Of a stretch of DNA of 64,000 nucleotides, positions 44,259 through 64,000 are shown one piece after another. The stretch is from Leeuwenhoekiella parthenopeia (GTDB taxonomy: Bacteria > Bacteroidota > Bacteroidia > Flavobacteriales > Flavobacteriaceae). The first letter of the stretch is position 1; each line of letters opens with the position of its first letter. The notes under the pieces are model-generated. The model saw only the letters and a program-made list of their open reading frames with translations, searched no databases and was not told where the DNA came from. The translations under genes were made by a program, and so were the position numbers. The stretch covers positions 1 through 64,000 of the forward strand of contig NZ_JAJGMW010000017.1 in assembly GCF_020782115.1 (NCBI RefSeq). Direction: 5' to 3'.

Positions 44259-44273
44259 GATATGTTCTATCTG

Positions 44274-46998: not shown

Positions 46999-47007
46999 CC
47001 CGCCGCC

Positions 47008-47874: not shown

Positions 47875-47943
47875 TTTGGTTGTAATGCAAAAATAGTATC
47901 ATTCTTAGCCAAAAAACGGTCGGTAAATCAAGAATGCCCGGGT

Positions 47944-47951
47944 TAAATTTG
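47944..47951 (+). promoter_or_regulatory. Candidate -7 element of the fuconate dehydratase operon
   Basis: TAAATTTG fits TAnnTTTG and lies 25 bases before the ATG. No TTTG at the -33 distance is visible, which fits an activator-dependent promoter. Confidence 0.4.
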
Positions 47952-47976
47952 AAGCCTTCACTTTAATTTTAATACT

Positions 47977-49296
47977 ATGAAAACAGAGGTAATCATTACC
48001 GGCTATGAGGTTGTAGACGTTCGGTTTCCTACCAGTCAGTTTCTCGACGGTTCAGACGCGATGAACCCCGACCCCGATTATTCTGCCGCCTACGTCATTT
48101 TAAAAACTTCGCAGCAAGAACTCGAAGGGCACGGCCTTACCTTTACCATAGGGCGCGGTAACGAGCTGTGTGTGGCGGCTATCGACTCGATAATGCCTCT
48201 TATTCTCAACAAATCCCTGGCTTCTTTTACGGCTAATATGGGTGCGTTCTGGAAAATGATTACCGGTGACAGTCAGTTGCGCTGGTTAGGGCCCGAAAAA
48301 GGAGTGATTCACCTCGCAACCGGAGCTGTGGTCAATGCCGTTTGGGATTTATACGCCAAGGCGGAAGAAAAGCCTCTGTGGAAATTGCTTGCCGATATGA
48401 GTGCCGAAAAACTCGTGTCGTGTGTTGATTTCACCTACATCACAGATGCCATTACTCCGGCCGAAGCGATAGCGATGCTCAAAAAGCTGGAAGGCACAAA
48501 GCAGCAACGTATCGATAATTTGCTTCAAAAGGGTTACCCGGCCTACACCACCTCTGCAGGGTGGTTGGGCTATAGCGATGAGAAAATGCGCAAATTGTGC
48601 CGCGAGGCCAAAGCCGAAGGTTTTAAGCATATGAAAATCAAGGTAGGTAAAGACCTTAAAGACGATATGCGCCGGGCTCAGATCATTCGGGAAGAAATAG
48701 GTGATGACCTGAAGCTGATGATGGACGCCAACCAAAAATGGGATGTGACCGAAGCCATCGCAAATATGGCCGAACTTAAAAAATTTAATCCCTGGTGGAT
48801 TGAGGAGCCTACAAGCCCAGACGATGTTTTGGGCCACGCAACCATTGCCAAAGCCGTTGCTCCCATTAAAGTTGCCACCGGAGAACACTGTCAAAACCGT
48901 GTGATCTTTAAACAACTGATGCAGGCAGGCGCTATTGAGATTTGCCAGATAGACAGCTGCAGGCTTGCCGGTGTAAATGAGGTGCTTGCGGTATTGCTGA
49001 TGGCGGCCAAGTTTGAGATTCCGGTATGCCCGCACGCCGGTGGTGTAGGCCTGTGCGAGTATGTACAGCACTTATCGATGATTGATTATATTGCGATAAG
49101 CGGTTCGCTAGAAAATCGCATTATTGAATATGTAGATCACCTGCACGAACATTTCTTTGATCCCGTAGTGATAAAAAACGGAGCGTATATGCCGCCGCAG
49201 TTACCGGGTTACAGCATCACGATGAAACCCGATTCGTTAAAAGATTACGAGTTTCCAAAAGGTAAAATCTGGCAGGAAATCGCTCAAAAAAACTAA
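47977..49296 (+). CDS. L-fuconate dehydratase, enolase superfamily
   Basis: 439 residues, the normal length. N-terminal capping domain with VVDVRFPTSQFLDGSDAMNP, typical of fuconate dehydratases. Barrel motifs: Lys220 and Lys222 in HMKIKVGKD, metal ligands Asp250 (MMDANQKWDV), Glu276 (WWIEEPTSPDD) and Glu303 (TGEHCQNR), and His353 in CPHAGGVGLCEYVQH. It removes water from L-fuconate to give 2-keto-3-deoxy-L-fuconate in the cytoplasm. It heads the three-gene plus-strand operon with an SDR and an FAH-family hydrolase, the two next steps of the same route. Confidence 0.94.
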   Translation: MKTEVIITGYEVVDVRFPTSQFLDGSDAMNPDPDYSAAYVILKTSQQELEGHGLTFTIGRGNELCVAAIDSIMPLILNKSLASFTANMGAFWKMITGDSQLRWLGPEKGVIHLATGAVVNAVWDLYAKAEEKPLWKLLADMSAEKLVSCVDFTYITDAITPAEAIAMLKKLEGTKQQRIDNLLQKGYPAYTTSAGWLGYSDEKMRKLCREAKAEGFKHMKIKVGKDLKDDMRRAQIIREEIGDDLKLMMDANQKWDVTEAIANMAELKKFNPWWIEEPTSPDDVLGHATIAKAVAPIKVATGEHCQNRVIFKQLMQAGAIEICQIDSCRLAGVNEVLAVLLMAAKFEIPVCPHAGGVGLCEYVQHLSMIDYIAISGSLENRIIEYVDHLHEHFFDPVVIKNGAYMPPQLPGYSITMKPDSLKDYEFPKGKIWQEIAQKN

Positions 49297-49300
49297 GATT

Positions 49301-50077
49301 ATGCAACCATTTCAACTAACACATAAAACAGCTTTAGTCACCGGTGGCGCCAGCGGTATTGGCCGCGCTATCGCGGAAACATTTGCCAAAAACGGCGCCC
49401 GGGTAGTTATTCTGGACTTTAACGAAACCCAGGCTAAAGAAGTTGTTGAAGCTTTTAAGGCCGAAGGTTTAGAGCTTCAGTATAGAATATGCGACGTTTC
49501 AAAAGCCGAAGAAGTACAGCAAATTATTGATGATATCGCTAGCCAAAATAAAATTGACATTTTGGTAAACAACGCCGGCGTAGCCCACGTGGGAAATATC
49601 GAAAACACCACCGAAGCCGACCTCGATCGTATTTATTCGATCAATATAAAAGGAGTGTACAATTGTGCCAAAGCGGTAATCAAACATATGAAAGGCAACA
49701 ACGGAGTCATCATCAATATGGCGTCTATTGCCTCCTCGGTGGGGATCTCAGACCGATTTGCCTACTCCATGTCTAAAGGAGCGGTGCTTACGATGACCTA
49801 TTCGATTGCCAAAGATTATGTAGATCAGGGCATTCGCTGCAACAGCATCTCCCCTGCCCGCGTACACACCCCTTTTGTAGACGGGTTTATTGCCAAAAAT
49901 TACCCCGACAATCAGGAGGAAATGTTTGAAAAACTCTCCAAAACCCAACCTTTGGGCCGTATGGGTAAACCTGTAGAAATCGCGCATTTAGCGCTGTACC
50001 TCGCCTCTGATGAAGCCTCCTTTATCACCGGGACTGACTTCCCGATTGATGGCGGATTTATAAAACTTAATGGATAA
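49301..50077 (+). CDS. SDR oxidoreductase, probable 2-keto-3-deoxy-L-fuconate dehydrogenase
   Basis: 258 residues, 4 bases after the dehydratase stop. SDR motifs: TGGASGIGRAIAETFAKNGA, NNAGVAHVGN, NMASIASSVG with the Ser, YSMSKGAVL with Tyr and Lys, and the end FITGTDFPIDGG. In the non-phosphorylative L-fucose route described in Xanthomonas, an SDR of this kind oxidises 2-keto-3-deoxy-L-fuconate to the 2,4-diketo acid with NAD. The operon order dehydratase-SDR-hydrolase here matches that sequence of reactions, which is the basis of the assignment. Confidence 0.87.
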   Translation: MQPFQLTHKTALVTGGASGIGRAIAETFAKNGARVVILDFNETQAKEVVEAFKAEGLELQYRICDVSKAEEVQQIIDDIASQNKIDILVNNAGVAHVGNIENTTEADLDRIYSINIKGVYNCAKAVIKHMKGNNGVIINMASIASSVGISDRFAYSMSKGAVLTMTYSIAKDYVDQGIRCNSISPARVHTPFVDGFIAKNYPDNQEEMFEKLSKTQPLGRMGKPVEIAHLALYLASDEASFITGTDFPIDGGFIKLNG

Positions 50078-50095
50078 CTTTTTAACTAGAAGATT

Positions 50096-50947
50096 ATGAA
50101 ACTAATACGTTTCGGCGCAGCCGGAAAAGAAAAACCCGGAGTACAACTCGACTCCGGTAAACGCATAGATGTATCGGCTTTTGGAGAAGATTACACCGAA
50201 GCCTTTTTTGAAACTGACGGTCTTAACCGCTTACAATCGTGGTTGAGCAAAGAACAGGATAATTGTCCGGAAGTTTCCGCAGAAACCCGACTTGGCGCTC
50301 CTTTGGTTAGACCCTCCAAAATTGTATGTATAGGTCTTAACTACGTTTCGCACGCCAAAGAAACCGGAATGGAAGTACCCAAAGAACCCATTTTGTTCTT
50401 TAAAGCCACTTCGGCCATCGTGGGCCCTAACGACGATGTGATCATCCCTAAAGGCAGTGAGAAAACCGACTGGGAAGTGGAGCTTGCAGTGGTTATAGGC
50501 AAAAAAGCCTCTTATGTGAGTGAAGCCGAAGCTTTAGATTATGTAGCCGGTTACACCCTGCACAACGATTACAGCGAGCGGGCTTTTCAGATTGAGCGTG
50601 CCGGGCAATGGGTTAAAGGGAAGAGCTGCGACACCTTTGCGCCTCTAGGTCCGTTTATCGCTACTAAAGATGAAATCAAAGATCCCAACAAGCTCAATTT
50701 ATGGCTAAAGCTGAATGGGGAGCAATTGCAGAACAGCAACACCTCAGATTTTGTATTTAATGTGCAGCAGGTGGTGAGTTACATCAGCCAGTTTATGACC
50801 CTGCTTCCGGGAGATATTATTTCTACCGGTACTCCTTTTGGTGTGGGAATGGGCTTTAAACCGCCACGCTATTTAAAACCCGGCGATGTGGTAGAATTGG
50901 GTATTGAAGGTCTGGGAACCTCCAGACAAACAGCCCGCGCCTATTAG
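50096..50947 (+). CDS. FAH-family hydrolase, probable 2,4-diketo-3-deoxy-L-fuconate hydrolase
   Basis: 283 residues with the fumarylacetoacetate hydrolase fold at about 70-280. Visible motifs are KIVCIGLNYVSHAKETGMEV, TDWEVELAVVIGKKA with the metal Glu residues, HNDYSERAFQ with the metal Asp, and PGDIISTGTPFGVGMG. The predicted reaction splits the diketo acid into pyruvate and L-lactate, the last step of the route. It is the final gene of the plus-strand fucose operon, followed by a strong terminator at 50978. A related activity on L-rhamnose-derived acid is possible but less likely here. Confidence 0.88.
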   Translation: MKLIRFGAAGKEKPGVQLDSGKRIDVSAFGEDYTEAFFETDGLNRLQSWLSKEQDNCPEVSAETRLGAPLVRPSKIVCIGLNYVSHAKETGMEVPKEPILFFKATSAIVGPNDDVIIPKGSEKTDWEVELAVVIGKKASYVSEAEALDYVAGYTLHNDYSERAFQIERAGQWVKGKSCDTFAPLGPFIATKDEIKDPNKLNLWLKLNGEQLQNSNTSDFVFNVQQVVSYISQFMTLLPGDIISTGTPFGVGMGFKPPRYLKPGDVVELGIEGLGTSRQTARAY

Positions 50948-51147: not shown

Positions 51148-51162
51148 TTATGTACTACATAA
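51148..51162. promoter_or_regulatory. 15-bp palindrome, candidate FadR/GntR-type operator
   Basis: TTATGTACTACATAA is perfectly symmetric about its central C, and lies 48 bases before the SusC start. A near copy, TTATGTCCTACATAT, lies between the FadR-type regulator gene and the GH28-like gene at 56836. Such A/T-flanked short palindromes are normal targets of FadR-subfamily regulators. Confidence 0.6.
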
Positions 51163-51209
51163 TTACATAAATACATAATGATTTGAATATCAAAACTAAA
51201 ACAACATTT

Positions 51210-54200
51210 ATGAGAACATTTTTACCACTCAGGATGCTTAAACAGATCACACTCGTGATGCTGGCATTGCTGGGAACAACCACAATTATGGCTTCTCCGG
51301 CTTTGGGAGAAATTTTTGACCACTATGATCAGAAAACGATTTCGGGAGTTGTTTACGACACCGAATCGGGAGAGACTCTTCCCGGTGTAAGTGTGAGTAT
51401 TAAGGGCACCAACACCGGTACCATTACAGATTTAGACGGTTCGTTTCAACTACAGGTTGAGCCCGGCGCCGTTTTGGTTTTTAGTTATGTAGGTTATATG
51501 AAGCAGGAAGTACCTGTAGGCGATCAAACTTCGCTCACCGTAAATATGCAAACCGATGTTCAGTCACTTGAAGAGGTGGCAATCATTGGTTATGGTAAGG
51601 TAAAACGATCTAATCTTACCGGGTCTGTATCTACCGTAAGCAGTGAAGTACTTGAACAAACTAACAAGGTAGACGCGGTTTCTTCTATTCAGGGGCAGGT
51701 TGCCGGTGTTACTGTGCAACGCACAGACAACAAGCCCGGTGCAGGGGGTTTCAACATTCGTGTACGGGGTGCTAATACCATTAATACCGCCGGAGACAAC
51801 GGAGGTTATAGCCCGGGACAAAACCCGTTATTTGTAGTCGACGGAATTTTTGTTGATGATATTTCATTCCTGAACCCTGCAGATATTGAACGTATGGATG
51901 TACTTAAAGATGCGGCTTCTGCTGCGATCTACGGTTCACGTGGTACAAACGGGGTTGTAATTATTCAGACTAAAAAAGGTAAAGAAGGCAAGCTCACCGT
52001 ACGTTACAACAACTACATCGGTTTTAAAGAAATATACAATCTGCCTCCAATTTTTAACGGCAAAACCTATATTCCATTCCTAAGAGATGTTATAGTAGGT
52101 AATCAATTTGCGTCTAATAAAGACGGAAACTTCAGCCAGTATTCTGCAGATACTGTTGACATCAATGAATATTTGAGTGACGAAGAACGCGAAAACATCG
52201 CAAACGGCGTAAGTACAGACTGGGTAGACCTCATCACCCGTAACGGTTTCCAACAAAATCATACACTTGATGTGAGTGGAGGGAACGATAAAACCGTTTA
52301 TGCTGCCGGTTTAGGGTATACTGAAGATCAGGGAACCATTTACGGGGAAGACTTTAAGCGTTATACCCTAAAAGGAAATATTCAAAGTGATATTACAGAC
52401 TGGCTGACCTTTGGGTATGACAATTACATCACTTTGGCTACGACCAATGAAGGTAGTTTGGAAGCCTTTAGAAGTGCGTACCGTCTAAAACCAATAGGTA
52501 GAGCTTACGACGACAATGGTGATTTACTTTTTTTACCAACCCAAAAGGAAACTCAGGTAAGCAACCCTATTTTCGATACACAAAATTGGAAACTGGAGAA
52601 CAAATACATCAATTTTATCGGTAATATTTCGCTTAGCGTAAAACCGGTAGAGGGTCTGAGTATCACTACAAAATTTGCTCCTAACGTAAAATACACCCGT
52701 TTAGGGGAATACCGTGGTTTATTAACCAAAAGTACCATCGGCAACCAAAGCAATACGCGTGCTGAAGTAAATAACTATCTCGATTACTCCTATACCTGGG
52801 ATAACATTGTTGACTACAGCCTTGATATTGATAAAGACAACAGTCTTGCCGCTACTTTGGTTTATTCACGGTTTTTACAGGACAATGAATCGTATAGAAT
52901 TCAGGTACGAAATTTTACATCAGACAACTTCTTATTCTATAATCTGGGAGCCGGTTCTAACGTAAACTCCTACGGTAGTGGGTTTAGCAGACAAACTTTG
53001 GAATCTTACACCGCTCGGGTTAATTACAACTTGATGGATCGCTACATTCTTACCCTTACCGGTAGATATGACGGGGCATCTGTATTATCTGACGACAACA
53101 AATGGGCCTTTTTCCCTTCCGCTTCATTCGCTTACCGTGTGATACGTGAAGATTTTATGCGTAACCAAAACGTATTCTCAGATCTGAAGTTGCGCTTAAG
53201 TTATGGTCAGACCGGTAATAACGGTATTGGTGGAGGATTAAATCCTTTAGGTACCCTTTCGTTACTTGAGTCAAGCTATACTAATATTGGAGATGCCAGT
53301 GTACCTACTTTGTATGTGAACGGCCTGGCAAACCAGGATCTAAGCTGGGAGCGTACTTCTGAGGTTAACTTTGGTCTTGATTTCGGCTTCCTAAACAACA
53401 GAATTACCGGTAGTGTTGACCTCTACAACAGAGATATTAAAGATATCATCTTCTACAGACCTTTACCTACAGTAACCGGTTTTGGAGGAACTTTTGATAA
53501 CATCGGTGAATCCCGTAACCGCGGTATTGAAGTAGGTCTAAATGCCAAAATTATTGACAATGAAAACTTTACCTGGAGTACAAACATCAACTTTGCCAGC
53601 AATCGCAATGAGATTGTAAATCTTTACGGTAATAGTGATGAAATCATTTTTGGAGCACAGGGCGGTACCTTTATTCATCGTGTGGGTGAGGCTACAGGAT
53701 CACTTTACGGCTTCAAGTTTGACGGAATCTGGCAACTGGATGAAGCTGCAGAAGCTGCAACCTACGGTCAAAAGCCGGGTCAGGTACGTGTTGTTGACGT
53801 AAATGGTGACGGTCAAATCACAGAGCAGGGAGACCGCGTAATTCTTGGAAACCCACTTCCTAAATGGACCGGTGGTATTACCAGTACGATGAACTATAAG
53901 AATTTTGACTTCTCCTTCTTTGTGTATACGAGTCAGGGTGTGACGATATCCAGTAATTTTCACAATTCCCGCGCTTTCTCCTATGATGGAGAACCCGCCC
54001 GTTTATGGAATGGTTACGACACTGACTATTGGACACCAACCAACCCCACTAACAACTGGTTTCAGCCCGGTAATGGTGGCCCGTATCAGCAAGCCATTAA
54101 AAATATGGATGTGTCTTTCGTAAAAGTTGGTTTTATGACTTTGGGATACGCCCTTCCTCAGGAGACTATTCGAAAATTCGGAATTCAAAAACTACGTTTA

Positions 54201-54332
54201 TACACTACGGTTCAAAACCCATTCACTTTTTCAGATTATGATGGCTGGGATCCTGAAAACGCCGGTAGAAACGACTATGGTGCCTCTTTTATGGCTCGCA
54301 CCTATATGGCCGGTATAAACTTTACATTCTAA
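51210..54332 (+). CDS. SusC-family TonB-dependent transporter (third pair)
   Basis: About 1040 residues from the ATG at 51210; the frame also has a TTG at 51183, but the start MRTFLPLRMLKQITLVMLAL fits a signal peptide ending near residue 32. The regulatory domain (ISGVVYDTESGETLPGVSVS, DLDGSFQL) is followed by the box SLEEVAIIGYGKVKRSNLTG, a plug with RVRGANTINT and YGSRGTNGVVIIQTKKGK, and the barrel ending AGINFTF. It imports a glycan of unknown kind, likely that attacked by the GH89 and GH28-like enzymes downstream. A candidate operator for the FadR-type regulator lies before it. Confidence 0.93.
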   Translation: MRTFLPLRMLKQITLVMLALLGTTTIMASPALGEIFDHYDQKTISGVVYDTESGETLPGVSVSIKGTNTGTITDLDGSFQLQVEPGAVLVFSYVGYMKQEVPVGDQTSLTVNMQTDVQSLEEVAIIGYGKVKRSNLTGSVSTVSSEVLEQTNKVDAVSSIQGQVAGVTVQRTDNKPGAGGFNIRVRGANTINTAGDNGGYSPGQNPLFVVDGIFVDDISFLNPADIERMDVLKDAASAAIYGSRGTNGVVIIQTKKGKEGKLTVRYNNYIGFKEIYNLPPIFNGKTYIPFLRDVIVGNQFASNKDGNFSQYSADTVDINEYLSDEERENIANGVSTDWVDLITRNGFQQNHTLDVSGGNDKTVYAAGLGYTEDQGTIYGEDFKRYTLKGNIQSDITDWLTFGYDNYITLATTNEGSLEAFRSAYRLKPIGRAYDDNGDLLFLPTQKETQVSNPIFDTQNWKLENKYINFIGNISLSVKPVEGLSITTKFAPNVKYTRLGEYRGLLTKSTIGNQSNTRAEVNNYLDYSYTWDNIVDYSLDIDKDNSLAATLVYSRFLQDNESYRIQVRNFTSDNFLFYNLGAGSNVNSYGSGFSRQTLESYTARVNYNLMDRYILTLTGRYDGASVLSDDNKWAFFPSASFAYRVIREDFMRNQNVFSDLKLRLSYGQTGNNGIGGGLNPLGTLSLLESSYTNIGDASVPTLYVNGLANQDLSWERTSEVNFGLDFGFLNNRITGSVDLYNRDIKDIIFYRPLPTVTGFGGTFDNIGESRNRGIEVGLNAKIIDNENFTWSTNINFASNRNEIVNLYGNSDEIIFGAQGGTFIHRVGEATGSLYGFKFDGIWQLDEAAEAATYGQKPGQVRVVDVNGDGQITEQGDRVILGNPLPKWTGGITSTMNYKNFDFSFFVYTSQGVTISSNFHNSRAFSYDGEPARLWNGYDTDYWTPTNPTNNWFQPGNGGPYQQAIKNMDVSFVKVGFMTLGYALPQETIRKFGIQKLRLYTTVQNPFTFSDYDGWDPENAGRNDYGASFMARTYMAGINFTF

Positions 54333-54346
54333 AAAATATTAGTATT

Positions 54347-55963
54347 ATGAAAAAATCAATTTATACTTCAGCCCTCGCTTTACTGCTTACCGGTACGCTG
54401 CTTACCGGTTGCGATGATTTCCTGGAGGAAACAAACAGACAGGCAATCAGTATTCCATCTTCACGAGAGAATACAGAAAGCTTCATCCAACTCGTGAACT
54501 ATATCTACGAAATAACCCGAGAAAACACCACCCACTATCAGCCTAATATGCTTTATGTGCTGGAAGATTTGGGTACCGATATCGTGACCCGCGCCTCTCC
54601 TCTTACAGGGACAGATGCGATTAACGACTATGTGGATATGAACGCTTCCAATTATGTGATGCAGGTCTACTGGGCTAATCAATATGAGCAGATCGCAGCG
54701 GCAAATACCTTGCTTGCAAACGCTGATTTGATTGATGGTGTTGAAGAAAGTCTGAAAAACAGAGGGGTCGGCGAAGCCAAATTTTTCAGAGCCTGGTCCT
54801 ATTTCAATCTGGTTGAAAACTATGGCGATGTACCCGTTGTCACCGAACCTATCACTACAGCCCAATCTGATTTTACCCGTGCCGAAGAAGAGGAAGTTTA
54901 TGAGCTGATCGTTAGCGACCTTAACGATGCCATCAGTGCGGTTGATGAAAATCCGGAAGAATTTGGCCGTGTATCTAAAGATGCCGCACGCCACTTACTT
55001 TCTAAAGTTCTCCTGACCCGTGGTTACAAGTCTTTTGCGGCATCAGACGATTACACCCGTGCAATTGCCCTGGCCGAAACGGTGATCAACAATCACCCGC
55101 TTGAGCCTACATTTGCCGATGTGGTTGATATTGAAAACCAACGCAATGACGAAGTGGTCTTCTCTTTCCTGTTTGGTACCGAAACCTCTAGCCTGGGCTG
55201 GGGTAATACCAAACACTTATTGTACAAGTTTGAATACTTCAACTATCCCGGTTTAGCTCGTGGTAGCTTATATCAAAATGGTATCGGTAGAATGCCAACT
55301 CCGTTTTTCTTCAATATGTTTGATGAGGAAGATACCCGTGATGAAGAAACCCTGAGATATGTTATTTACGCAGACGTAGCTGAAGACGGCCTCGAAGTAG
55401 GCGATACGGCAATTTATTTCCCAAAAACGGCGTGGACTCAGGAACGTATAGACAGCAAGCCTTACGCGGTAATCAATCCAGATCAGTATCTGGTTAATGA
55501 TGGAGTTACGAATGTTCACTGGCCAATGTTTAAGAAATTTGACGACCCGGGCGCTCCATTTACGTATGCCAACGAGCGTGCCTTTGGTGATCGCGATATG
55601 GTTATTATGCGTGGAGCTGAAGCCTATCTGATTGCTGCTGAAGCTGCATTGCAAAACAATAATCCGGGTGCTGCTGCCACTTATCTTAATGCCGTACGTT
55701 CACGTGCCGGTATCACAACCCCGCTTACTGCAGGAGATGTAGATCTGGCTCTTATTTTAGATGAACGTGCCCGTGAATTGATTGGCGAAGTAAACCGCTG
55801 GATGGACCTAAAACGTACCGGTACTTTGATATCAAGAGTTTTAGAATACAACCCGCACGCAGCGCTTAACAATGCAATAGCCGAAAAACACCGTCTGAGA
55901 CCCATACCCCAGTCTGAGATTGATGCTTCCGGAAAAACAATAAGCCAAAACCCGGGTTACTAA
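54347..55963 (+). CDS. SusD-family outer-membrane lipoprotein (third pair)
   Basis: 538 residues. Lipoprotein signal ending at Cys22 (LLTGTLLTGCDDFLEE). SusD core: GEAKFFRAWSYFNLVENYGDVPVV, DAARHLLSKVLLTRGYKS, the YLIAAEAALQNNNPGAAATY segment, and RARELIGEVNRWMDLKRTG with the end RLRPIPQSEID. It caps the SusC partner 15 bases upstream and binds the imported glycan. A perfect terminator follows, so the pair forms a two-gene transcript, separate from the enzymes beyond the regulator. Confidence 0.93.
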   Translation: MKKSIYTSALALLLTGTLLTGCDDFLEETNRQAISIPSSRENTESFIQLVNYIYEITRENTTHYQPNMLYVLEDLGTDIVTRASPLTGTDAINDYVDMNASNYVMQVYWANQYEQIAAANTLLANADLIDGVEESLKNRGVGEAKFFRAWSYFNLVENYGDVPVVTEPITTAQSDFTRAEEEEVYELIVSDLNDAISAVDENPEEFGRVSKDAARHLLSKVLLTRGYKSFAASDDYTRAIALAETVINNHPLEPTFADVVDIENQRNDEVVFSFLFGTETSSLGWGNTKHLLYKFEYFNYPGLARGSLYQNGIGRMPTPFFFNMFDEEDTRDEETLRYVIYADVAEDGLEVGDTAIYFPKTAWTQERIDSKPYAVINPDQYLVNDGVTNVHWPMFKKFDDPGAPFTYANERAFGDRDMVIMRGAEAYLIAAEAALQNNNPGAAATYLNAVRSRAGITTPLTAGDVDLALILDERARELIGEVNRWMDLKRTGTLISRVLEYNPHAALNNAIAEKHRLRPIPQSEIDASGKTISQNPGY

Positions 55964-55970
55964 AACTAGA

Positions 55971-56017
55971 AAATCCGTCAATCCCGGGCTTAGCCTTAAG
56001 ATTGACGGATTTTTTTA
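55971..56017 (+). terminator. Rho-independent terminator of the third SusC/SusD pair
   Basis: A perfect 12-bp stem (AAATCCGTCAAT and ATTGACGGATTT) followed by a run of T. The convergent FadR-type regulator gene ends 21 bases beyond. Confidence 0.88.
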
Positions 56018-56037
56018 TTCAATTATTAATTGAGCGT

Positions 56038-56736
56038 TTAGCTCAGTTTGCTAAAGTGCGGAGTAAGGTGATTGCGCATGTTTTCTCGGAATTCATAAGC
56101 AGTGCCGCTACGCAGCGTTTCAACCAGATCATTATGCGAGATACTACCCCGCTTGGGTTCTGCGGCAGACTTAGATTCCTGCTGCATCATATAATGAAAA
56201 ACGGGTAAAAGCATAGATTGAAAACGGTTTAAAGTCCCGTTTCCGGACATTTTATAGAGATAGGAATGAAATTCAATCTCGTAAGCCAGACGGGTTTGAA
56301 GATCGGTTTTACAAAGCGGGTCATTAGCCTCCCGGTCTACAATCTCCTGTAAATTATCAACATCAGAATCTTTTTTTCTAATGAACAGCAACTCACTCAT
56401 ACCTACTTCAAGCACCAGACGCAGCTCAAAAATGTGTTGCATAGCTTCTTCACCAAGCAGGTCCGGGTCCATAATGCGCTCTATTCCGCTTAAAATATCG
56501 GGTTCTGCTATAAACATCCCCTTGCGTTTTTTAGACTCAACAACGCCCAGCATACGCAAACGGCTAAGAGACTCACGCACGATGTTACGGCTAACGCCCA
56601 GATTTTCGGCTAGCTCAATTTCTCCGGGTAGTGAATCGCCAGATTTGAAACGATTCTCTTTTAAAAATTCAAGAATACGTTGTTCTACCTGCTCGACCAG
56701 AGATACAGATTTAATCGGTTTAATTTTAGTAGACAT
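56038..56736 (-). CDS. FadR-subfamily GntR transcriptional regulator
   Basis: 232 residues. N-terminal winged helix (about 10-80): QVEQRILEFLKENRFKSGDS, LPGEIELAENLGVSRNIVRE, SLSRLRMLGVVESKKRKGMF. C-terminal all-helical FCD domain (about 95-225) with the His-bearing segments EIEFHSYLYKMSGN, SHNDLVETLRSG and NHLTPHF that would bind a metal and a small acid. FCD-type regulators commonly respond to sugar acids such as uronates. It lies between the SusC/SusD pair and the GH28-like gene, reads away from the latter, and near-identical palindromes stand before both. This suggests that it controls both transcripts and perhaps its own gene. Confidence 0.9.
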   Translation of the reverse strand: MSTKIKPIKSVSLVEQVEQRILEFLKENRFKSGDSLPGEIELAENLGVSRNIVRESLSRLRMLGVVESKKRKGMFIAEPDILSGIERIMDPDLLGEEAMQHIFELRLVLEVGMSELLFIRKKDSDVDNLQEIVDREANDPLCKTDLQTRLAYEIEFHSYLYKMSGNGTLNRFQSMLLPVFHYMMQQESKSAAEPKRGSISHNDLVETLRSGTAYEFRENMRNHLTPHFSKLS

Positions 56737-56835
56737 AGATTTGATGGTTGGTGGTAAATTTCTGATAAAACAACTAAAACTTAAGACATTCTAAATGTAA
56801 TTTTAACACATATTTTAAATATATTGCTATTTAAA

Positions 56836-56850
56836 TTATGTCCTACATAT
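56836..56850. promoter_or_regulatory. Near-palindrome, second candidate FadR/GntR-type operator
   Basis: TTATGTCCTACATAT shares 13 of 15 bases with the perfect palindrome at 51148. It lies in the 121-base gap between the divergent regulator and GH28-like genes, ending 7 bases before the GH28-like ATG. Confidence 0.55.
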
Positions 56851-56857
56851 AAAATTA

Positions 56858-58270
56858 ATGAACATAACGAATATACACGATTTTGGAGCCGTAGGTGACG
56901 ATTTTACAAATAATTCGGTTTCCATTCAAAAAGCAATTGATCATTGCGCCGGCCTGGGGGGCGGAAAAGTCGTTATTCCTGCCGGTAAAGCTTTCCTGTC
57001 GGGACCTTTTGACCTCAAATCAAATATTGAATTGCATCTGGAACAGGGCGCTGTGCTTAAAGCATTCCCGGACGAAGGGGCTTATACTAAAAGTGCATTT
57101 AGACAAAATCTGGGCGAAGGTACCATCTGGATAGGTGGAGAAAACCTCAACCAGATTTCTATTACCGGTGGAGGAACAATAGATGGCAACGGAATCTTTT
57201 TTATGGGTGATGAGCTTCACGATTCCTACGAACTGAAGCCTTTTGAAACCATCGATCCCAGACCGCACATACTCACACTGGTATCCTGTAAAAATGTAAA
57301 AATGCACGGCATTACGGTAAGCAATGCTGCCTACTGGGCCCTGCATTTTATAGGTTGCTACGACGTTTCTATCGCAAATATTTCGATATATAACGATCTT
57401 AAAGTGCGCAACAGCGACGGCATTGATCTCGATCACTGCCAAAATGTGCGCATCAGCAATTGCCATATCGAGTCTGGTGACGACTGCATTTGCCTTAAAA
57501 GCCGAAGGGAATACGAAGAGTTAGGCCCTTGTAAAAATATCGTAATTTCAAACTGCACCCTGATCAGCACTTCGTGCGCCATAAAAATTGGCTCCGAAAA
57601 TATGGATGCCATCAGCCACGTTACCTTTAATAACTGCATTATTACAGGCAGTTGCAGGGGTATCGGCATTCAAAACCGCGATGAAGGCACCGTGTCAGAC
57701 ATCATCTTTTCGAATATTATGGTCGAATGTAAGCAGTTTTCTGACGTCTGGTGGGGAATGGCAGAGCCTATTTACATCACGGCCTATCCACGTGCCTCGC
57801 ACGATCACAAAGACGCGGGCTGGAGATTGAAACCCGGAGCTGCCGAAGCCGGTATTGGTAAGGTTTCTAACATCACCTTTGCAAACATCAGATGCAAGAG
57901 CGAAAACGGGATTTTTCTGGGAGCAGCATCGCCAGATCTTCTGGATAACATTCGCTTTAACGATATTGACCTCGAGATTTCAAAAACCACCAAATATCCG
58001 GGAGGGTATTACGATTGCAGACCCTGCAAGGATGCTGATTTCATCGGCGAGCAAACCGCCGGTTTTTATATGGTAAATGCCAGCAATGTTTACATCTCAA
58101 ACACCACGGTAAACTGGGGAACTCAAAGACCAGATTACTACGGTAACGCGCTTTATGCCGAAAATATAACCTCTTTGGTGCTCGATAATTTTAAAGGGGA
58201 GGCCGCATTTGATCATCTGGAAAGCATCGTTAAACAGGGACAAACACAACTCGAAAAAATTTCAAATTAA
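56858..58270 (+). CDS. GH28-like enzyme, predicted cytoplasmic, with altered active-site motifs
   Basis: 470 residues with the right-handed beta-helix pattern of GH28 (polygalacturonase) proteins: DFGAVGDDFTNNSVSIQKAI at the start, TGGGTIDGNG, and repeated short beta strands. The three catalytic Asp residues are present: Asp187 in NSDGID, and Asp208 and Asp209 in SGDDC. But the usual GHG is replaced by SCA (Cys240 for His) and the usual RIK by GIQ near 270-272, so substrate binding must differ from true polygalacturonases. No signal peptide is present, so it should act in the cytoplasm on an imported oligosaccharide. It is followed after 2 bases by a symporter gene. A rhamnogalacturonan-type or other alpha-uronide substrate is possible. 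Confidence 0.85.
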   Translation: MNITNIHDFGAVGDDFTNNSVSIQKAIDHCAGLGGGKVVIPAGKAFLSGPFDLKSNIELHLEQGAVLKAFPDEGAYTKSAFRQNLGEGTIWIGGENLNQISITGGGTIDGNGIFFMGDELHDSYELKPFETIDPRPHILTLVSCKNVKMHGITVSNAAYWALHFIGCYDVSIANISIYNDLKVRNSDGIDLDHCQNVRISNCHIESGDDCICLKSRREYEELGPCKNIVISNCTLISTSCAIKIGSENMDAISHVTFNNCIITGSCRGIGIQNRDEGTVSDIIFSNIMVECKQFSDVWWGMAEPIYITAYPRASHDHKDAGWRLKPGAAEAGIGKVSNITFANIRCKSENGIFLGAASPDLLDNIRFNDIDLEISKTTKYPGGYYDCRPCKDADFIGEQTAGFYMVNASNVYISNTTVNWGTQRPDYYGNALYAENITSLVLDNFKGEAAFDHLESIVKQGQTQLEKISN

Positions 58271-58272
58271 TC

Positions 58273-60432
58273 ATGGTTTTAGGCTTATCATATCTGGATA
58301 TTGCAGTACTGGCGCTTTACTTTGGTGTCATTGTTTATATCGGCATACGGTCTAGCCTGAAAATTAAAAAGGAAGAAGACTATTTTCTGGGAGGCAGAAA
58401 ATTTGGAAAACTCTTCTCAACCTTTGCCAGTTTTGGGCAGGCCACCTCAGCCGATGGCCCTGCGGGTGTCGCGACCACAACCTTTAAAAACGGCGCCAGC
58501 GGCATCTGGAGTTCGCTTTTAATGCTTTTTGCCACCCCCCTGTTTTGGATTACGGCACCCTGGTTGCGACGCCTGCGCATCACCACGATGGGCGATTTTT
58601 ATGAGGAGCGTTACGCTTCGCGAAAAATGGCCGCCACCTATGCTTTAGTGGGAACCATTGGGATGATGGGTTTGCTTTCGGTAGGTTATAAGGCGGTGAC
58701 CACCACGGCTCTGGCAATGACCGGAAAGCCGGAAACTGCACTAACTGCAACCGAAAAGCTCGAAAAAGAAAAAGCAGATCGCCTTTTTGAACTTTCCAAC
58801 GAAAACTTCACCTACCTCTCACAGGCCGAAAAACAGGAATTAACCGAACTGAGACAGGAAAATCCACGAGCGCTTTTCAGTTATTTTTCTGAAGATGTAC
58901 TCATCTGGACCATCTGTTTTATCGTACTGTTTTATACGGCATTGGGAGGACTCGAAGCCGCATTTTACACCGATTTGCTTCAGGGAATTTTTATCATTCT
59001 GCTTTCAATCATTCTCATACCCTTCGCTTGGCAGGCGATTAATCAGCAATTTGGCGGCAGCGGCATGATGCAGGCGCTCACCAACCTGCACGAGCAACTG
59101 CCCGAAAGCACTTTTGAAGTTTTTGGTTCGCCTGCAACTTTAGATTTTACCTGGTATTTTATTGTTATGGCGGCATTGGTTTCGGGGATGACGGTTGTAG
59201 CCCAGCCTAACCAGCTGGTAACAGCAGGAGCCGCAAAAAGTGAAGACGCGGCACGCACCGGCTTTGTGACCGGCACGTTTATGAAACGTATTGTGACCAT
59301 CCTCTGGGGAATGGTAGGGCTTTGCGCCATTTTGCTCTATGGGGGTAAAATCATGAACTCCGATTTTGTTTGGGGTCATGCCACCACCCAATTACTGGCA
59401 CCGCTGGGATTAGGTCTGGTAGGATTGATGCTGGCCAGTCTGATGGCGGCTTTGATGTCAACGGCAGACTGCCTGATGATTACCGTTTCCGGACTGGTAG
59501 TCAACAATTTTTACAAATACTTCATCCCCGATAAGTCTGCCAGACATTACATCTGGGCCGGGAGAATATCGGGCGCTATTTTTCTCATCGGGGCTGCGGT
59601 AATTACGACTCAGTTTGACACCATTCTGCAGATTTTAAAGTTTATCTGGGAGTTTTTTGTGGTGTTTGTAGCCGCATTCTGGCTGGGACTAAAATGGCGA
59701 CGTGCCAATCGAATTGCTGCCTGGTATTCGATCCTACTTACCTTTTTGCTTTTTTATTTTATCCCCATGCTTTTACCCATAGTATTTCCGGAGATGCGTA
59801 CCGATGAAAGCCTGACAAAGCTCACCGAATCACGCATCGTCACCCGAAATTACGAAGTAAAAGAAGTAGATCTTGAAAACCGAAAGTACGATATCGCGCA
59901 ATGGGAAAAACTTCCACAAAGCGAAAAAGATCAAATCAAAAAACCGGAAGCACTTGTGCTGGGCGGTACTAACGCCGTAGACTATGCGATGCCGCAACAG
60001 GCTATATTTTGGTCTAAAGGAGTTTCGGTAAATAAAGCTGATGAGCGCTACGGCCGCGGCTACATTTACCTGGAATTGTACCTGCTCGACCGTCTGGGCT
60101 GGGATCTTTCCAGGAATCCCTATGCCTTAAACGAAACCATAAGACTGGGCATACGCCTGCTGTTTCCGTTTTTGATACTCATCTTCATCGCTTTGGCAAC
60201 AAAACCTGATCCCGACGAACATTTAAAGTTCTTCTACCAGAAGATGCGCACCCGGGCGATTGATAACAGTACCTTAAAAAATCAACCGGTTACCGAAAAA
60301 CTCTTATTCCCCAACAGCAATTGGGAATTGTACACATGGAATAGAAAGGACAGCACGGGCTTCCTGCTCGCCTGCCTCATTGTTCTGCTAATTATTGGAC
60401 TACTCTACCTGATGGTCTCCCTCGGGTCTTAA
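58273..60432 (+). CDS. Sodium/solute symporter family (SSS) transporter
   Basis: 719 residues, with about 13-14 membrane helices. Family motifs: YFGVIVYIGIRSSLKIKKEEDYFLGGR with the first helix, FASFGQATSADGPAGVATTTF in the substrate/sodium region, FYTALGGLEAAFYTDLLQGIF, and MASLMAALMSTADCLM. Two soluble insertions are noteworthy: a charged, probably helical loop of about 50 residues (EKLEKEKADRLFELSNENF and on) between early helices, and about 120 residues near the C-terminal part (TKLTESRIVTRNYEVKEVDL onward). SSS carriers bring in sugars, inositol, sialic acids or sugar acids. Placement between GH28-like and inositol oxygenase genes suggests a uronic-acid or inositol-containing substrate. 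It is not identified further. Confidence 0.87.
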   Translation: MVLGLSYLDIAVLALYFGVIVYIGIRSSLKIKKEEDYFLGGRKFGKLFSTFASFGQATSADGPAGVATTTFKNGASGIWSSLLMLFATPLFWITAPWLRRLRITTMGDFYEERYASRKMAATYALVGTIGMMGLLSVGYKAVTTTALAMTGKPETALTATEKLEKEKADRLFELSNENFTYLSQAEKQELTELRQENPRALFSYFSEDVLIWTICFIVLFYTALGGLEAAFYTDLLQGIFIILLSIILIPFAWQAINQQFGGSGMMQALTNLHEQLPESTFEVFGSPATLDFTWYFIVMAALVSGMTVVAQPNQLVTAGAAKSEDAARTGFVTGTFMKRIVTILWGMVGLCAILLYGGKIMNSDFVWGHATTQLLAPLGLGLVGLMLASLMAALMSTADCLMITVSGLVVNNFYKYFIPDKSARHYIWAGRISGAIFLIGAAVITTQFDTILQILKFIWEFFVVFVAAFWLGLKWRRANRIAAWYSILLTFLLFYFIPMLLPIVFPEMRTDESLTKLTESRIVTRNYEVKEVDLENRKYDIAQWEKLPQSEKDQIKKPEALVLGGTNAVDYAMPQQAIFWSKGVSVNKADERYGRGYIYLELYLLDRLGWDLSRNPYALNETIRLGIRLLFPFLILIFIALATKPDPDEHLKFFYQKMRTRAIDNSTLKNQPVTEKLLFPNSNWELYTWNRKDSTGFLLACLIVLLIIGLLYLMVSLGS

Positions 60433-60501
60433 TTGATGAATAGGCTTAGAGGCCATTAAAATGAAGAACTAAAAAAAACTGTTTAACCTGAATTTATAGT
60501 T

Positions 60502-61365
60502 ATGAAAGATAGCAATCAAAACGCGCAACCGCTGGGTAGTCTTGACGAGTGGGAAGATGATGTGGTGCGCCGTTATCCTGAAGAGGCACATAAAGCCAAG
60601 GAAGAATTTCGCAATTACGAGGCTCCGGCTCGTGATACGGTAAAAGAGTTTTACCGCATCAATCACATCAACCAGACGTATGATTTTGTGCTCGAAAAGA
60701 AAAACGACTTCCTCAAATTTAACCGTCGTGAGATGTCGCTTTGGGATGCAGTCGAATTTTTAAATACGCTTGTTGATGACTCTGACCCGGACATTGACCT
60801 CGATCAAACCCAGCATTTACTGCAAACCTCTGAAGCCATACGCGCAGACGGGCATCCGGACTGGTTTGTGCTTACCGGTTTCTTACACGATCTGGGTAAA
60901 GTATTGTGCCTTTTTGGCGAACCGCAGTGGGCTGTTGTGGGCGATACCTTTCCCGTAGGTTGTGCCTATTCAGACAAAATCGTGTATCCGGAATTTTTTA
61001 AGCAAAACCCCGATTATACTAATGAGCGCCTCAATACCAAATATGGGGTTTACAAACCCAATTGCGGCTTAGATAACGTGCACATGTCCTGGGGTCACGA
61101 TGAGTACCTCTACCACATTATGAAAGACTATTTGCCCGAGCCGGCTTTATATATGATACGCTATCATTCGTTTTACTCGCAGCACCGCGAGGGCGCTTAC
61201 GATCACCTGATGAGCAAACACGATCACGAGATGTTTAAGTGGGTTGATAAATTCAATCCGTATGATTTGTATTCCAAGGCTCCTACCCCGCCAAACGTAA
61301 AAGAACTGCGTCCCTATTATGAGGATTTGGCTGCCAAATTCCTGCCGGACACCCTGAAGTTTTAG
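60502..61365 (+). CDS. myo-Inositol oxygenase (MIOX)
   Basis: 287 residues, about the size of the animal and plant enzymes. It oxidises myo-inositol to D-glucuronate with O2 at a two-iron centre. All six iron ligands seen in mouse MIOX have equivalents: His105 in [12 protein letters not shown], His129 and Asp130 in FLHDLGK, His199 in [10 protein letters not shown], His222 in RYHSFYSQH, and Asp255 in [11 protein letters not shown]. The segments [27 protein letters not shown] and [16 protein letters not shown] also match. It is cytoplasmic. The gene is co-directional with the symporter (69 bases before) and the GH89 gene (21 bases after). Its D-glucuronate product could join the glucuronate route found in the xylan locus. 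Confidence 0.96.
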
Positions 61366-61386
61366 ATTATTTTTATAATACCTGTT

Positions 61387-63645
61387 ATGATTCTTAAACC
61401 GAAATACCAATCTGTCTTAAAGCTTGCCTGTTGCCTTTTTATACTTGCAGGGCTTAACTCCTGTAAAAAAGAAAAAGAAGCAGAAATTCAGGCTCAGGAA
61501 GAAACGCCCTACACGAGTCTCTTAAAACGGGTGGTACCCGAGTATGCAGACCAATTTAGTATTGATTCGCTACCCGGTGCCGGCGATCAGGCTTTTGAAA
61601 TTGCAGCTCAGGAAGGTAAAATCAGTTTGAAGGGAAATAACGGCGTGGCTATTGCTTCGGCCCTGTATTATTATATCAAAGAGTATGCTCACGGGCAGAT
61701 TACCTGGAATGGCACCAACCTCAACTTCCCGGAAACCCTGCCCCTGCCTGAACAACCGGTACGCAAAGAATCGCCTTACGAGTACCGCTATTACCTCAAC
61801 TACTGCACCTTCAACTACTCGATGAGCTGGTGGAACTGGGAACGCTGGGAAAAGGAAATCGACTGGATGGCGCTTCACGGTATCAATATGCCTTTAGCCA
61901 TAACCGGTGAAGAATACATTTGGGACGAAGTTTACAAGTCGTACGGCTTTACCGATGAAGACCTCAACGACTTTTTCAGCGGTCCTTCGTATTTCTCCTG
62001 GTTTTGGATGGGAAATCTGGACGGCTGGGGCGGCCCGCTTCCGCAAAGCTGGAAAGAAAGCCATCGCGATCTGCAGAAAAAGATTTTGCAGCGCTCACGC
62101 GAACTGGGAATGAAGCCCGTGCTTCCGGCGTTTACCGGTCACGTTCCGGCTTCCTTCAAAAAATTCTTCCCCGATGCCAACCTTAAAAAGACCAACTGGG
62201 GCAATGATTTTGGCGACACCTACATCCTGGATGCAGGCGATCCGCTTTTCGCAGAAATAGGAAAACGCTTTTTAGAAAAACAGGAAGAAGTTTTTGGCAC
62301 AGACCACCTCTACACGGCAGATACGTTTAACGAAAATGAGCCGCCTTTAGACGATCCGCAGTATTTGGGTGAGTTGAGCGAAAAGATTTTTGAAGGCATG
62401 AAAGCCGCAGATCCCGAGGCAATCTGGGTGATGCAGGGCTGGTTGTTTTACAGTCACAAAGACTTTTGGAAAACCCCTCAAATCAAAGGTTTGCTCAGCA
62501 CCGTGCCCGATGATCGTATGATCATTCTCGATCTGGCTACCGAAATTGAACCGGTCTGGAAACAAACCGAAGCTTTCTACGGCAAACAATGGATCTGGAA
62601 TATGCTGCACAATTTTGGCGGAAACATCAGCATGTTTGGCCGCATCGAGACTGTGGCACAGGAACCCGCAAAAGCTTTAAACGACAGCACTTCGGGCAAT
62701 TTAAAAGGAATAGGTCTTACGATGGAAGCCATAGAACAAAACCCGGTGCTTTACGAACTGATGACCGATAATACCTGGCGCGACGCACCTATTGAGCTCA
62801 AGCCCTGGCTGAAGCAGTACACCCGCAACCGTTATGGTGCGGTAAACGACAGCATCATCAAAGCCTGGGATATTCTGGTAGAAACGGCTTACAACGGCAC
62901 AACGATACGCGATGGTGCCGAGTCTATCATCGCTGCGCGTCCTACTTTTGAGGGCTACCGCCGCTGGGCACGCACCAAGATGAATTATGATCAGCTTGAC
63001 CTGCTGCCCGCCTGGGATTTGTTTATTGGCGCAAGTGATACCTTTAAAAATGCTGATGGTTTTGAGTACGATCTGGTTGATCTTACCCGTCAGGTGCTTG
63101 CCAACTATGCGCTGCCCGTGCAGCAACAAATGGCGATAGCCTATCGCAACAACGATAAGGAAGCTTTTAAAAAGCACAGCGAAGAATTGTTGACGCTCAT
63201 CAGCGATTTAGATCAATTGCTCGCTACGCGAAAAGACTTCCTGCTGGGGCCCTGGATTGCTGATGCACGAAGCTGGGGCACCACACCTGAAGAAAAAGCC
63301 CTTTACGAGCGCAATGCGCGCGACCTCATCACGCTTTGGGGCGGTCCTGACAATCCCCTGCACGAGTATTCCTGCCGCCAATGGAGCGGGGTGCTTAATG
63401 ATTTTTACAAACCACGCTGGCAACAATTCATCACCGATGTTCAAGCCGAATGGGGCAATTTTGATCAGGAAGCTTTTGATGAAAAAATCAAACAATGGGA
63501 ATGGGAATGGGTCAACAAAGAAGAATCGTATCCCACTGAGGCCAGCGGTGACGCTTACCAAATAGCAAAAGCACTTCACACCAAATACCGAAGCAAAATC
63601 ACCCCGATCACGAAGATCATGCCGCCTATTGACTACAACTATTAA
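61387..63645 (+). CDS. GH89 alpha-N-acetylglucosaminidase, lipoprotein
   Basis: 752 residues. Lipoprotein signal with Cys26 (LFILAGLNSCKKEKE), so exported and anchored. N-terminal small domain (about 40-120), then the NAGLU barrel: YRYYLNYCTFNYSMSWWNWE, WMALHGINMPLAITGEEYIW, FWMGNLDGWGGPLP, and YTADTFNENEPPLDDP with the catalytic Glu residues near 316-318, then WVMQGWLF and WIWNMLHNFGGNISMFGR. A helical C-terminal domain follows to the end. GH89 enzymes remove terminal alpha-linked GlcNAc, as lysosomal NAGLU does from heparan sulphate. It lies 21 bases after MIOX and 9 bases before an HGSNAT-like gene. Confidence 0.95.
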   Translation: MILKPKYQSVLKLACCLFILAGLNSCKKEKEAEIQAQEETPYTSLLKRVVPEYADQFSIDSLPGAGDQAFEIAAQEGKISLKGNNGVAIASALYYYIKEYAHGQITWNGTNLNFPETLPLPEQPVRKESPYEYRYYLNYCTFNYSMSWWNWERWEKEIDWMALHGINMPLAITGEEYIWDEVYKSYGFTDEDLNDFFSGPSYFSWFWMGNLDGWGGPLPQSWKESHRDLQKKILQRSRELGMKPVLPAFTGHVPASFKKFFPDANLKKTNWGNDFGDTYILDAGDPLFAEIGKRFLEKQEEVFGTDHLYTADTFNENEPPLDDPQYLGELSEKIFEGMKAADPEAIWVMQGWLFYSHKDFWKTPQIKGLLSTVPDDRMIILDLATEIEPVWKQTEAFYGKQWIWNMLHNFGGNISMFGRIETVAQEPAKALNDSTSGNLKGIGLTMEAIEQNPVLYELMTDNTWRDAPIELKPWLKQYTRNRYGAVNDSIIKAWDILVETAYNGTTIRDGAESIIAARPTFEGYRRWARTKMNYDQLDLLPAWDLFIGASDTFKNADGFEYDLVDLTRQVLANYALPVQQQMAIAYRNNDKEAFKKHSEELLTLISDLDQLLATRKDFLLGPWIADARSWGTTPEEKALYERNARDLITLWGGPDNPLHEYSCRQWSGVLNDFYKPRWQQFITDVQAEWGNFDQEAFDEKIKQWEWEWVNKEESYPTEASGDAYQIAKALHTKYRSKITPITKIMPPIDYNY

Positions 63646-63654
63646 CCGCTGCTT

Positions 63655-64000
63655 ATGACCGTAAAAACTTCAGAACGCTTTTTATCGCTCGACGTATTCA
63701 GAGGGCTTACCATCGCCCTGATGATTTTGGTAAACACGCCGGGTACCGGTGCGGAGATGTACCCCTATCTGGTGCACGCGCAATGGTTTGGGTTTACACT
63801 GGCAGATTTAGTCTTCCCTTCATTTCTATTCGCCGTGGGTAATGCGATGAGCTTCTCGATGCGCCGCTTTCAGGAGGCTGTACCTGCAGATTTCTGGAAA
63901 AAAGTACTGAAGCGTACTGCAATTATCTTTCTGTTGGGATTCCTGATGTATTGGTTTCCCTTTTTTGAATTCAATGACGGGCAACTGCAGTTATCCCCAT
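63655..64000 (+). CDS. HGSNAT-like membrane acyltransferase (DUF5009 type), N-terminus (partial)
   Basis: The first 115 codons; the gene runs off the right edge. The start SERFLSLDVFRGLTIALMIL then VNTPGTG, the segment GFTLADLVFPSFLFAVGNAM, and a further helix LKRTAIIFLLGFLMYW are those of the bacterial homologues of heparan-alpha-glucosaminide N-acetyltransferase, a multi-spanning membrane enzyme. The human enzyme puts an acetyl group on terminal alpha-glucosamine so that NAGLU (GH89) can remove it. Here the GH89 gene ends 9 bases before. The same division of work is tempting, but the acetyl transfer by bacterial members is not proved to my knowledge. Confidence 0.82.
   Translation, partial: MTVKTSERFLSLDVFRGLTIALMILVNTPGTGAEMYPYLVHAQWFGFTLADLVFPSFLFAVGNAMSFSMRRFQEAVPADFWKKVLKRTAIIFLLGFLMYWFPFFEFNDGQLQLSP

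Follow-up and report, generated by a model that had tools for sequence, protein, structure and literature searches.

Sus-type polysaccharide utilization loci of the Bacteroidota combine a SusC/SusD pair with lipoprotein glycosidases and a dedicated regulator, mostly in one direction, and the locus described here shares this plan. It lies at the end of a 64,000-nucleotide stretch of Leeuwenhoekiella parthenopeia DNA (hereafter the window), which is positions 1–64000 of the 100,917-bp contig NZ_JAJGMW010000017.1. Unlike described Sus-type loci, it has a predicted lipid-headgroup target, a predicted cytoplasmic last cut and an attached inositol module, namely the myo-inositol oxygenase MIOX or, in two relatives, the full iol pathway. 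The predicted target belongs to the glycosyl inositol phosphorylceramides (GIPCs), which the abstract of PMC7570276 presents as the major sphingolipids on earth, with glycan standards lacking. A phospholipase C of Botrytis releases inositol phosphate glycans from plant GIPCs (PMC11496612, excerpts); like the system proposed here it attacks plant GIPC at the headgroup, but it comes from a plant pathogen and frees the glycan rather than consuming it. Our literature search, outside which most subscription papers and all preprints lie, found neither a bacterial pathway for the GIPC glycan nor an inositol oxygenase paired with polysaccharide utilization loci. We computed gene content, synteny, co-occurrence, the replacement of MIOX by iol genes, the link between enzyme localisation and symporter type, and the places of a palindrome, and we infer every enzyme specificity, flux direction and inducer named below. 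On this basis the locus is probably a plant-type GIPC-headgroup utilization locus, with a GH28-like enzyme acting as a cytoplasmic hydrolase of glucuronosyl-inositol (GlcA-inositol).

Gene identities were assigned by Pfam profile search, which recovered every gene listed in an earlier note made from the letters of the stretch alone: SusC/SusD, a FadR-type regulator, GH28, an SSS symporter, MIOX, GH89 and an HGSNAT-like protein. The cassette opens on the plus strand with a SusC-type TonB-dependent transporter (51210–54332; ATG at 51210, with a TTG at 51183 as the start called by the open reading frame (ORF) tool) and a SusD-type surface glycan-binding lipoprotein (54347–55963). The profile-matched GntR/FCD (FadR-type) regulator of the cassette (56038–56736) is, as the note held, alone on the minus strand among the cassette genes of 51210–64000. 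Five further plus-strand genes follow: a signal-less GH28-like enzyme, predicted to be an intracellular alpha-glucuronosyl-(1,2)-myo-inositol hydrolase (56858–58270; PF00295, 117 bits); a profile-matched SSS-family symporter of a 719–729 aa type, predicted to import uronosyl-inositol (58273–60432); MIOX (60502–61365; PF05153, 369 bits); a lipoprotein GH89 alpha-N-acetylglucosaminidase with the N-terminus LNSC (61387–63645; PF05089, 497 bits); and nagX, encoding an HGSNAT-like transmembrane N-acetyltransferase (63655–64785, past the window end at 64000; PF07786, 35 bits, cut-off 22). The note had advised reading beyond 64000. This brought the end of nagX, a GH95 gene after it (contig 64800–67337, Pfam) and, on the opposite strand, a GH43 gene (67428–68390, minus strand, Pfam) and a NUDIX-type gene, followed by xylose-type genes (the last two kinds identified by eye); it brought no mannosidase, phosphatase or phospholipase to 68 kb. 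With an adjoining SusC/SusD pair, GH28, GH89, GH95 and a GntR regulator, the locus is a polysaccharide utilization locus of the Sus type. The window has no Rfam match at gathering score and no tRNA.

The key enzymes of the cassette retain the residues expected of their families. MIOX is 100% identical to MIOX of Leeuwenhoekiella nanhaiensis and L. palythoae, and it keeps what we take to be the six iron ligands when aligned to the solved inositol oxygenase 2huo. GH89 contains the three NAGLU domains (PF12971, PF05089 and PF12972) and, aligned to 4xwh, keeps both of the glutamates presumed to be catalytic in NAGLU. His41 of NagX aligns with the residue of HGSNAT (8vkj) that we take to be the acetyl-carrying histidine. 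Both NagX and GH89 are homologous to the solved HGSNAT and NAGLU chains; at 165 bits vs a cut-off of 480 for the NCBIfam NagX equivalog, NagX is a homologue and not the named equivalog.

A search of named genomes with MIOX returned at least 582 relatives, and the best 80 loci were kept (loci are L-numbered below). Among these, the order SusC-SusD-GntR-GH28-SSS-MIOX-GH89-NagX recurs in L004–L006 and L008–L010, which belong to Leeuwenhoekiella, Zunongwangia and Sinomicrobium, and the core GntR-GH28-SSS-MIOX is also found in a Flammeovirgaceae metagenome-assembled genome (L014) and in Portibacter lacus (L054). These last two are 59–64% identical to the window for GntR, GH28 and SSS and 80% for MIOX, and the GntR orthologues of all eight loci are 61–99% identical. 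The recurrence of this gene order is far beyond chance. Many other MIOX loci among the best 80 have different neighbours, often an SSS protein of ~540 aa.

Co-occurrence was measured in 395 evenly drawn Bacteroidota genomes (G-numbered; G000 is the genome of the window). Orthologues of the GH28 clade were defined by at least 52% identity, which excluded G143 and G188 (37–40% identical GH28; no MIOX and no GH89 in the searches of the 395 genomes), and MIOX was counted above the family cut-off only, which kept 29 genomes and dropped 34 of the 63 with matches. The GH28 clade is thus present in 17 genomes, MIOX in 29 and GH89 in 26. MIOX lies 2.4–8.7 kb from the clade GH28 in 14 of the 17 genomes; GH89 is present in 15 and lies within 35 kb of GH28 in 13. 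The note had named a lack of synteny of MIOX and GH89 with the GH28-like gene elsewhere as fatal to its proposal; such synteny is found, MIOX standing at 9 kb or less and GH89 at 35 kb or less in most of these genomes. Fisher tests by genome gave p = 2e-15 for MIOX with GH28 and 2e-18 for GH89 with GH28. The values by genus, 6e-5 and 2e-7 respectively (nine genera with clade GH28), are the ones to trust because eight of the 17 genomes belong to a single genus (g2), presumably Flavobacterium. GH28 matches number 107 in the 29 MIOX genomes. Twenty-six of them are within 10 kb of MIOX, 14 belonging to this clade and 12 to one other, and the next nearest match is 44 kb away. The link between the GH28 clade and MIOX is specific.

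Five genomes from later searches (G686, G833, G791, G753 and G781) bring the cassette genomes to 22, with named loci L004–L010, L014 and L083 standing outside this number and L054 and G158, which have the same layout, taken as one; a class-wide search gave ten genomes, nine of them already known. Relatives of the cassette occur in several other Bacteroidota families. An inositol module is found in 19 of the 22 genomes (MIOX in 17, iol in two), GH92 in 21 (the exception being the locus in the window), NagX in 18, GH89 in 17 and a clear calcineurin-like phosphatase in 14, with weak phosphatase matches in G120 and G781. A phosphatidylinositol-specific phospholipase C (PI-PLC, PF16670) is part of the loci of G202 and G781, and L014 has a PF16670 fragment at the contig edge and a purple acid phosphatase beside MIOX; genome-wide, PF16670 occurs in 11 of the 22 cassette genomes vs 8 of 58 chosen others. 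A fusion of NagB with PIG-L is present in four of the 22 loci, adjoining GH89 in G021, G343 and G202 and near it in G791. The typical locus of genus g2 (G025) reads GH89-SusC-SusD-GH92-GH92-phosphatase-MIOX-GH2-NagX-SSS-GH28-GH28-GH51-GH95; GH2 and GH51 are found in all eight loci of this genus and GH95 in three. In G021 and G343 the second GH28 adjoins the phosphatase. G686, G833 and G791 have MIOX, GH89, NagX, phosphatase, GH92 and the shorter SSS; G753 reads GH92-GH28-SSS-NagX-GH89, and G781 reads GH28-GH92-GH28-PI-PLC with SusD-SusC. Genes for alpha-glucosamine or N-acetylglucosamine (GlcN, GlcNAc) or alpha-mannose (Man), for an alpha-uronide and for inositol are therefore found together across genera. 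Functions that the note had missed in the window turn up in related loci, where mannosidase, phosphatase, amino-sugar and inositol catabolism are present and phospholipase in a few; mannosidase, phosphatase and phospholipase are all absent from the locus in the window. Its statement that neither phospholipase nor phosphatase is seen thus holds for that locus and fails for some relatives.

The related loci also contain proteins outside this core. A GH2 beta-galactosidase stands between nagX and GH95 in sister Leeuwenhoekiella L005 (14304–17405), L007, L008 and L009; it is absent from the window's locus, L004 and L006, and shares 48–49% identity with its genus-g2 counterparts. Two families recur: one of ~600 aa (608 aa; L125 533–2359), the other of ~200 aa (L110 7735–8343). 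Neither has a Pfam match in the copies scanned, and the 608-aa family has only a weak PDB match; they may hold a step such as headgroup release. GH115-like proteins lie beside GH92 near MIOX in L130 (Portibacter, 5957–7984) and L033 (1279–3357). The G158 copy has a weak Pfam match (53 bits) and is 49% identical to the L033 copy, and the stretch of L033 read has the GH115-like gene and no GH28 of this clade. The GH115-like protein is possibly a second solution for the GlcA-inositol bond.

A pointer to inositol comes from the three of the 17 clade-GH28 genomes that have no MIOX (G014, G120 and G238). In G120, iolG, iolE, iolA, iolD, iolC and iolB stand on the same strand beside GH92, GH28 and SSS. 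Their NCBIfam scores exceed the cut-offs for iolG (483/355), iolD (904/715), iolC (373/300), iolB (310/205) and MMSDH (methylmalonate-semialdehyde dehydrogenase; 546/448.5), whereas iolE falls under it (216 vs 290). G014 has the same six genes, 67–86% identical to those of G120. Its iolD, iolA and iolB, and the GH28 of G753, are absent from the ORF calls, where longer antisense frames were taken, and were located by tblastn. Extending the search for iol-type loci to the families of G120 (22 genomes) and G014 (21 genomes) added one genome, G753, whose 12.5-kb contig breaks off before the expected place of the iol genes. Two unrelated inositol-burning routes beside the same GH28 make inositol a likely product of the locus, and since GH28 adjoins a complete iol pathway in two of the three MIOX-less genomes, inositol is very likely part of the substrate. 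That the target is an inositol glycan is the part of the proposal we hold with the greatest confidence.

The predicted structure of GH28 is a beta-helix (pLDDT 87) with the galacturonidase 5olp as best PDB match (TM 0.66/0.71), so both profile and fold place it in the GH28 family. Proteins of the clade retain N(S/G)DG and GDD and have GSEN; most members read GIQNRDEG where GH28 enzymes have RIK, and the RIK lysine is missing at the aligned positions. In polygalacturonases the RIK lysine binds a carboxylate; its loss would suit a neutral inositol leaving group. We believe that GlcA-inositol hydrolysis would be an activity new to the family.

Localisation of GH28 is coupled to the type of symporter. 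Signal peptides were judged by eye and hydropathy, with ambiguous GH28 starts in G120 and L014. Beside an SSS of 719–729 aa, GH28 lacks a signal peptide in five of five cases (G000, G158, G014, G753 and, with its ambiguous start, G120), and beside a shorter SSS it has one in 14 of 14; in three genomes neither SSS type was seen. A quick tree with long outgroup branches places all signal-less proteins in a single clade (SH-aLRT 92). We read the long SSS as a putative uronosyl-inositol importer and the shorter one as a putative inositol importer. A hydrolase inside the cell together with a different symporter type backs the division of labour suggested in the note, in which NagX and GH89 would work outside, the symporter would import, and GH28 and MIOX would act inside. 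With more reserve than for the window itself, we favour the wider view that several Bacteroidota families have a new route for GIPC headgroups. Its hallmark would be a GH28 alpha-glucuronosyl-(1,2)-myo-inositol hydrolase in two forms, one periplasmic with an inositol symporter and one cytoplasmic with a uronosyl-inositol symporter, followed by either MIOX or iol.

The cassette also shares an operator-like palindrome, which stands on the plus strand as TATGTACTACATA at 51149–51161, ~50 bp upstream of the susC ATG, and as TATGTCCTACATA at 56837–56849, 8 bp upstream of the GH28 ATG. Within the window the pattern TATGTNNTACATA is confined to 51149 and 56837, giving three matches over both strands against 0.04 expected, a count reached in none of 100 shuffles. 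It lies upstream of both susC and GH28 in L004, L005, L008, L009 and L010, at the susC site only in L006, and at the GH28 site only in L014, where 6330–6342 directly precedes the signal-less GH28 start at 6349. In Portibacter L130 it stands before an operon of a TonB receptor, a Por-secretion-tail protein, a GH115-like protein and GH92, and L078, an unrelated MIOX locus, also has it once. A scan of 1,357,970 of the 4,418,806 bases of the window's own genome (31%), including a stretch of contig C14 chosen for its GH92 genes rather than at random, found one further site (0.56 matches expected in all), ~80 bp before a gene for a NagB-PIG-L fusion (L162 6221–8237 on C14), which has an SSS gene downstream and GH92, GH20 and GH130 upstream. 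This amino-sugar gene therefore looks linked to the cassette. From its position and co-conservation we infer that the GntR/FCD protein binds the palindrome. The pair of GH92 genes on C14, considered as a missing part of the locus, sits with SSS (by eye), GH130 and GH20 and looks more like an N-glycan locus, though a link to the cassette is conceivable, as the operator-bearing nagB-PIG-L gene comes directly after the pair.

Taken together, these data suggest the following route. The substrate would be a GlcN(Ac)-alpha-1,4-GlcA-alpha-1,2-myo-inositol headgroup with further sugars, which SusC/SusD would carry into the periplasm as an oligosaccharide. GH95, and in some sister species GH2, would trim the outer sugars; NagX would N-acetylate the terminal glucosamine and the lipoprotein GH89 would then remove GlcNAc. 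The long SSS symporter would import GlcA-inositol, the cytoplasmic GH28-like enzyme would hydrolyse it to glucuronate and inositol, and MIOX would oxidise inositol to a second glucuronate, both glucuronates entering the UxaC/UxuB/UxuA route. NagB-PIG-L, behind the same operator, would handle the amino sugar, and the GntR/FCD protein would control the regulon through TATGTNNTACATA. Excerpts of PMC8099651, PMC4230332, PMC12201980 and PMC9113257 describe the headgroup chemistry, by which each sugar would have a gene family in the long loci. Man-alpha-1,4-GlcA-alpha-1,2-inositol is a free product of rose cells, as cited in the excerpt of PMC4230332, and headgroups carry fucose and both GlcN and GlcNAc according to that of PMC12201980, which would explain why a GlcN acetyltransferase is retained.

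Of the alternatives, we weighed most seriously another inositol glycan, a glycosylphosphatidylinositol (GPI) or a GIPC of fungi or protists, with GlcN or Man directly on inositol, so that NagX and GH89 would free inositol, GH92 would remove mannose and GH28 would act on an attached uronide. GH92, NagX/GH89, phosphatase and inositol genes would all fit GPI, and G099 and L011 have MIOX, GH89 and NagX but no clade GH28 in the stretch read (in G099 none genome-wide at the search threshold). GPI anchors are not known to contain uronic acid, however, and a uronidase-type enzyme is conserved, so that between the two options left by the note, GIPC or GPI, GIPC fits better. Fungal GIPCs lack an acidic sugar as well (PMC4230332, excerpts), which would leave GH28 without a role, and a GH115-like gene, of an alpha-glucuronidase family, in the MIOX loci of G158 and L033 also points to a uronide; uxuA lies within or next to the G343, G138 and G099 loci. 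We regard this alternative as unlikely.

A general uronate or pectin regulon, in which GH28 would act on a pectic galacturonide while glucuronate, inositol and GlcNAc came from the same plant debris and no single substrate existed, is less likely still. Among solved structures and named proteins, those closest to GH28 are pectin enzymes, and the locus has clusters for glucuronoxylan and fucose as neighbours; yet only two GH28 clades are found near MIOX (26 of 107 matches), iol replaces MIOX in G014 and G120 although the iol pathway is not known to feed the glucuronate pool, and a scan of some of the neighbours revealed neither a pectin lyase nor GH78 nor GH105. Very improbable, in our view, is a locus for a heparan-like glycosaminoglycan, modelled on the lysosomal sequence in which HGSNAT and NAGLU act on heparan sulfate. 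NagX and GH89 do adjoin, with a uronate-type enzyme, but in the same set of neighbours neither sulfatase nor heparinase-type lyase turned up, and heparan breakdown is not known to involve inositol genes or GH92. Both the heparan-type and the pectin-regulon reading were rejected.

Several observations weigh against a GIPC-headgroup locus. To our knowledge GH28 enzymes act on galacturonides or pectin and not on glucuronides, and the pectin-enzyme relatives named above count here too. GH28 is universal in the collected loci because these were gathered by GH28; nearly half of the clade-GH28 genomes come from genus g2, and 15 of the 29 MIOX genomes have no clade GH28. GH89 lies away from the locus in G033 and G363 and is missing from G158 and G120. 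Since their iol genes are 67–86% identical, the iol loci of G014 and G120 may be one event, and the localisation–symporter coupling is likewise a single evolutionary event. In G238 the 40 kb that were read show no inositol gene and MIOX is missing from the whole genome, and G781 and G753 have no inositol gene on their short contigs (14.7 kb and 12.5 kb). Among the genes read at contig 51–68 kb there is no GH92, phosphatase or phospholipase, a genome-wide search of the window's own genome found no PI-PLC (PF16670), and PI-PLC is in only two of the 22 loci. As nagB directly follows the N-glycan-like cluster of GH92, GH130 and GH20, it may serve that cluster as well. Finally, the named hosts are largely marine, where GIPC has no obvious source.

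Upstream of the cassette, a glucuronoxylan cluster (9627–39320) holds GH67, a short-chain dehydrogenase, uxuA, GH115, a CE15-type glucuronoyl esterase, two GH43 and two GH10 and, by eye, a hybrid two-component regulator and two SusC/SusD-like pairs. The dehydrogenase (uxuB-like, by eye) and uxuA (mannonate dehydratase), at 11803–13710 on the plus strand, could serve as an outlet for the resulting glucuronate. A different contig carries uxaC (C58:90192), together with genes for a PfkB-type kinase and an aldolase of the KDPG type. Between this cluster and the cassette is a probable L-fucose catabolic cluster (40266–50947) with an MFS permease, GH29, dehydrogenases, an amidohydrolase, an enolase-superfamily dehydratase, a hydrolase similar to 2,4-didehydro-3-deoxy-L-rhamnonate hydrolase (353 bits vs a cut-off of 500) and, by eye, two AraC-type regulators.

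If the GIPC-headgroup reading is true, the locus would provide a bacterial pathway for the GIPC glycan, enzymes with which to release and sequence GIPC glycans, and one reason for the retention of MIOX in some of the Bacteroidota, together with a GH28 activity that is likely new and a bacterial role for the HGSNAT–NAGLU relay known from human lysosomes. In that relay, as proposed here, a terminal alpha-GlcN is acetylated and alpha-GlcNAc then removed, and the proteins are homologous; here, in contrast, no sulfatase was seen among the neighbours scanned, inositol genes are attached and NagX scores under the NCBIfam cut-off. Catabolism of the Bacillus iol type is matched by iolG, E, A, D, C and B, which stand in for MIOX in G120 and G014, but in these genomes it is joined to a glycosidase locus, and the window has MIOX instead. 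Exo-polygalacturonases and galacturonidase of family GH28 (3jur, 5olp) share the beta-helix, here as a model, and the NxDG and GDD motifs, whereas the clade of the window has residues of its own, with GIQNRDEG for RIK in most members and, in the window, no signal peptide.

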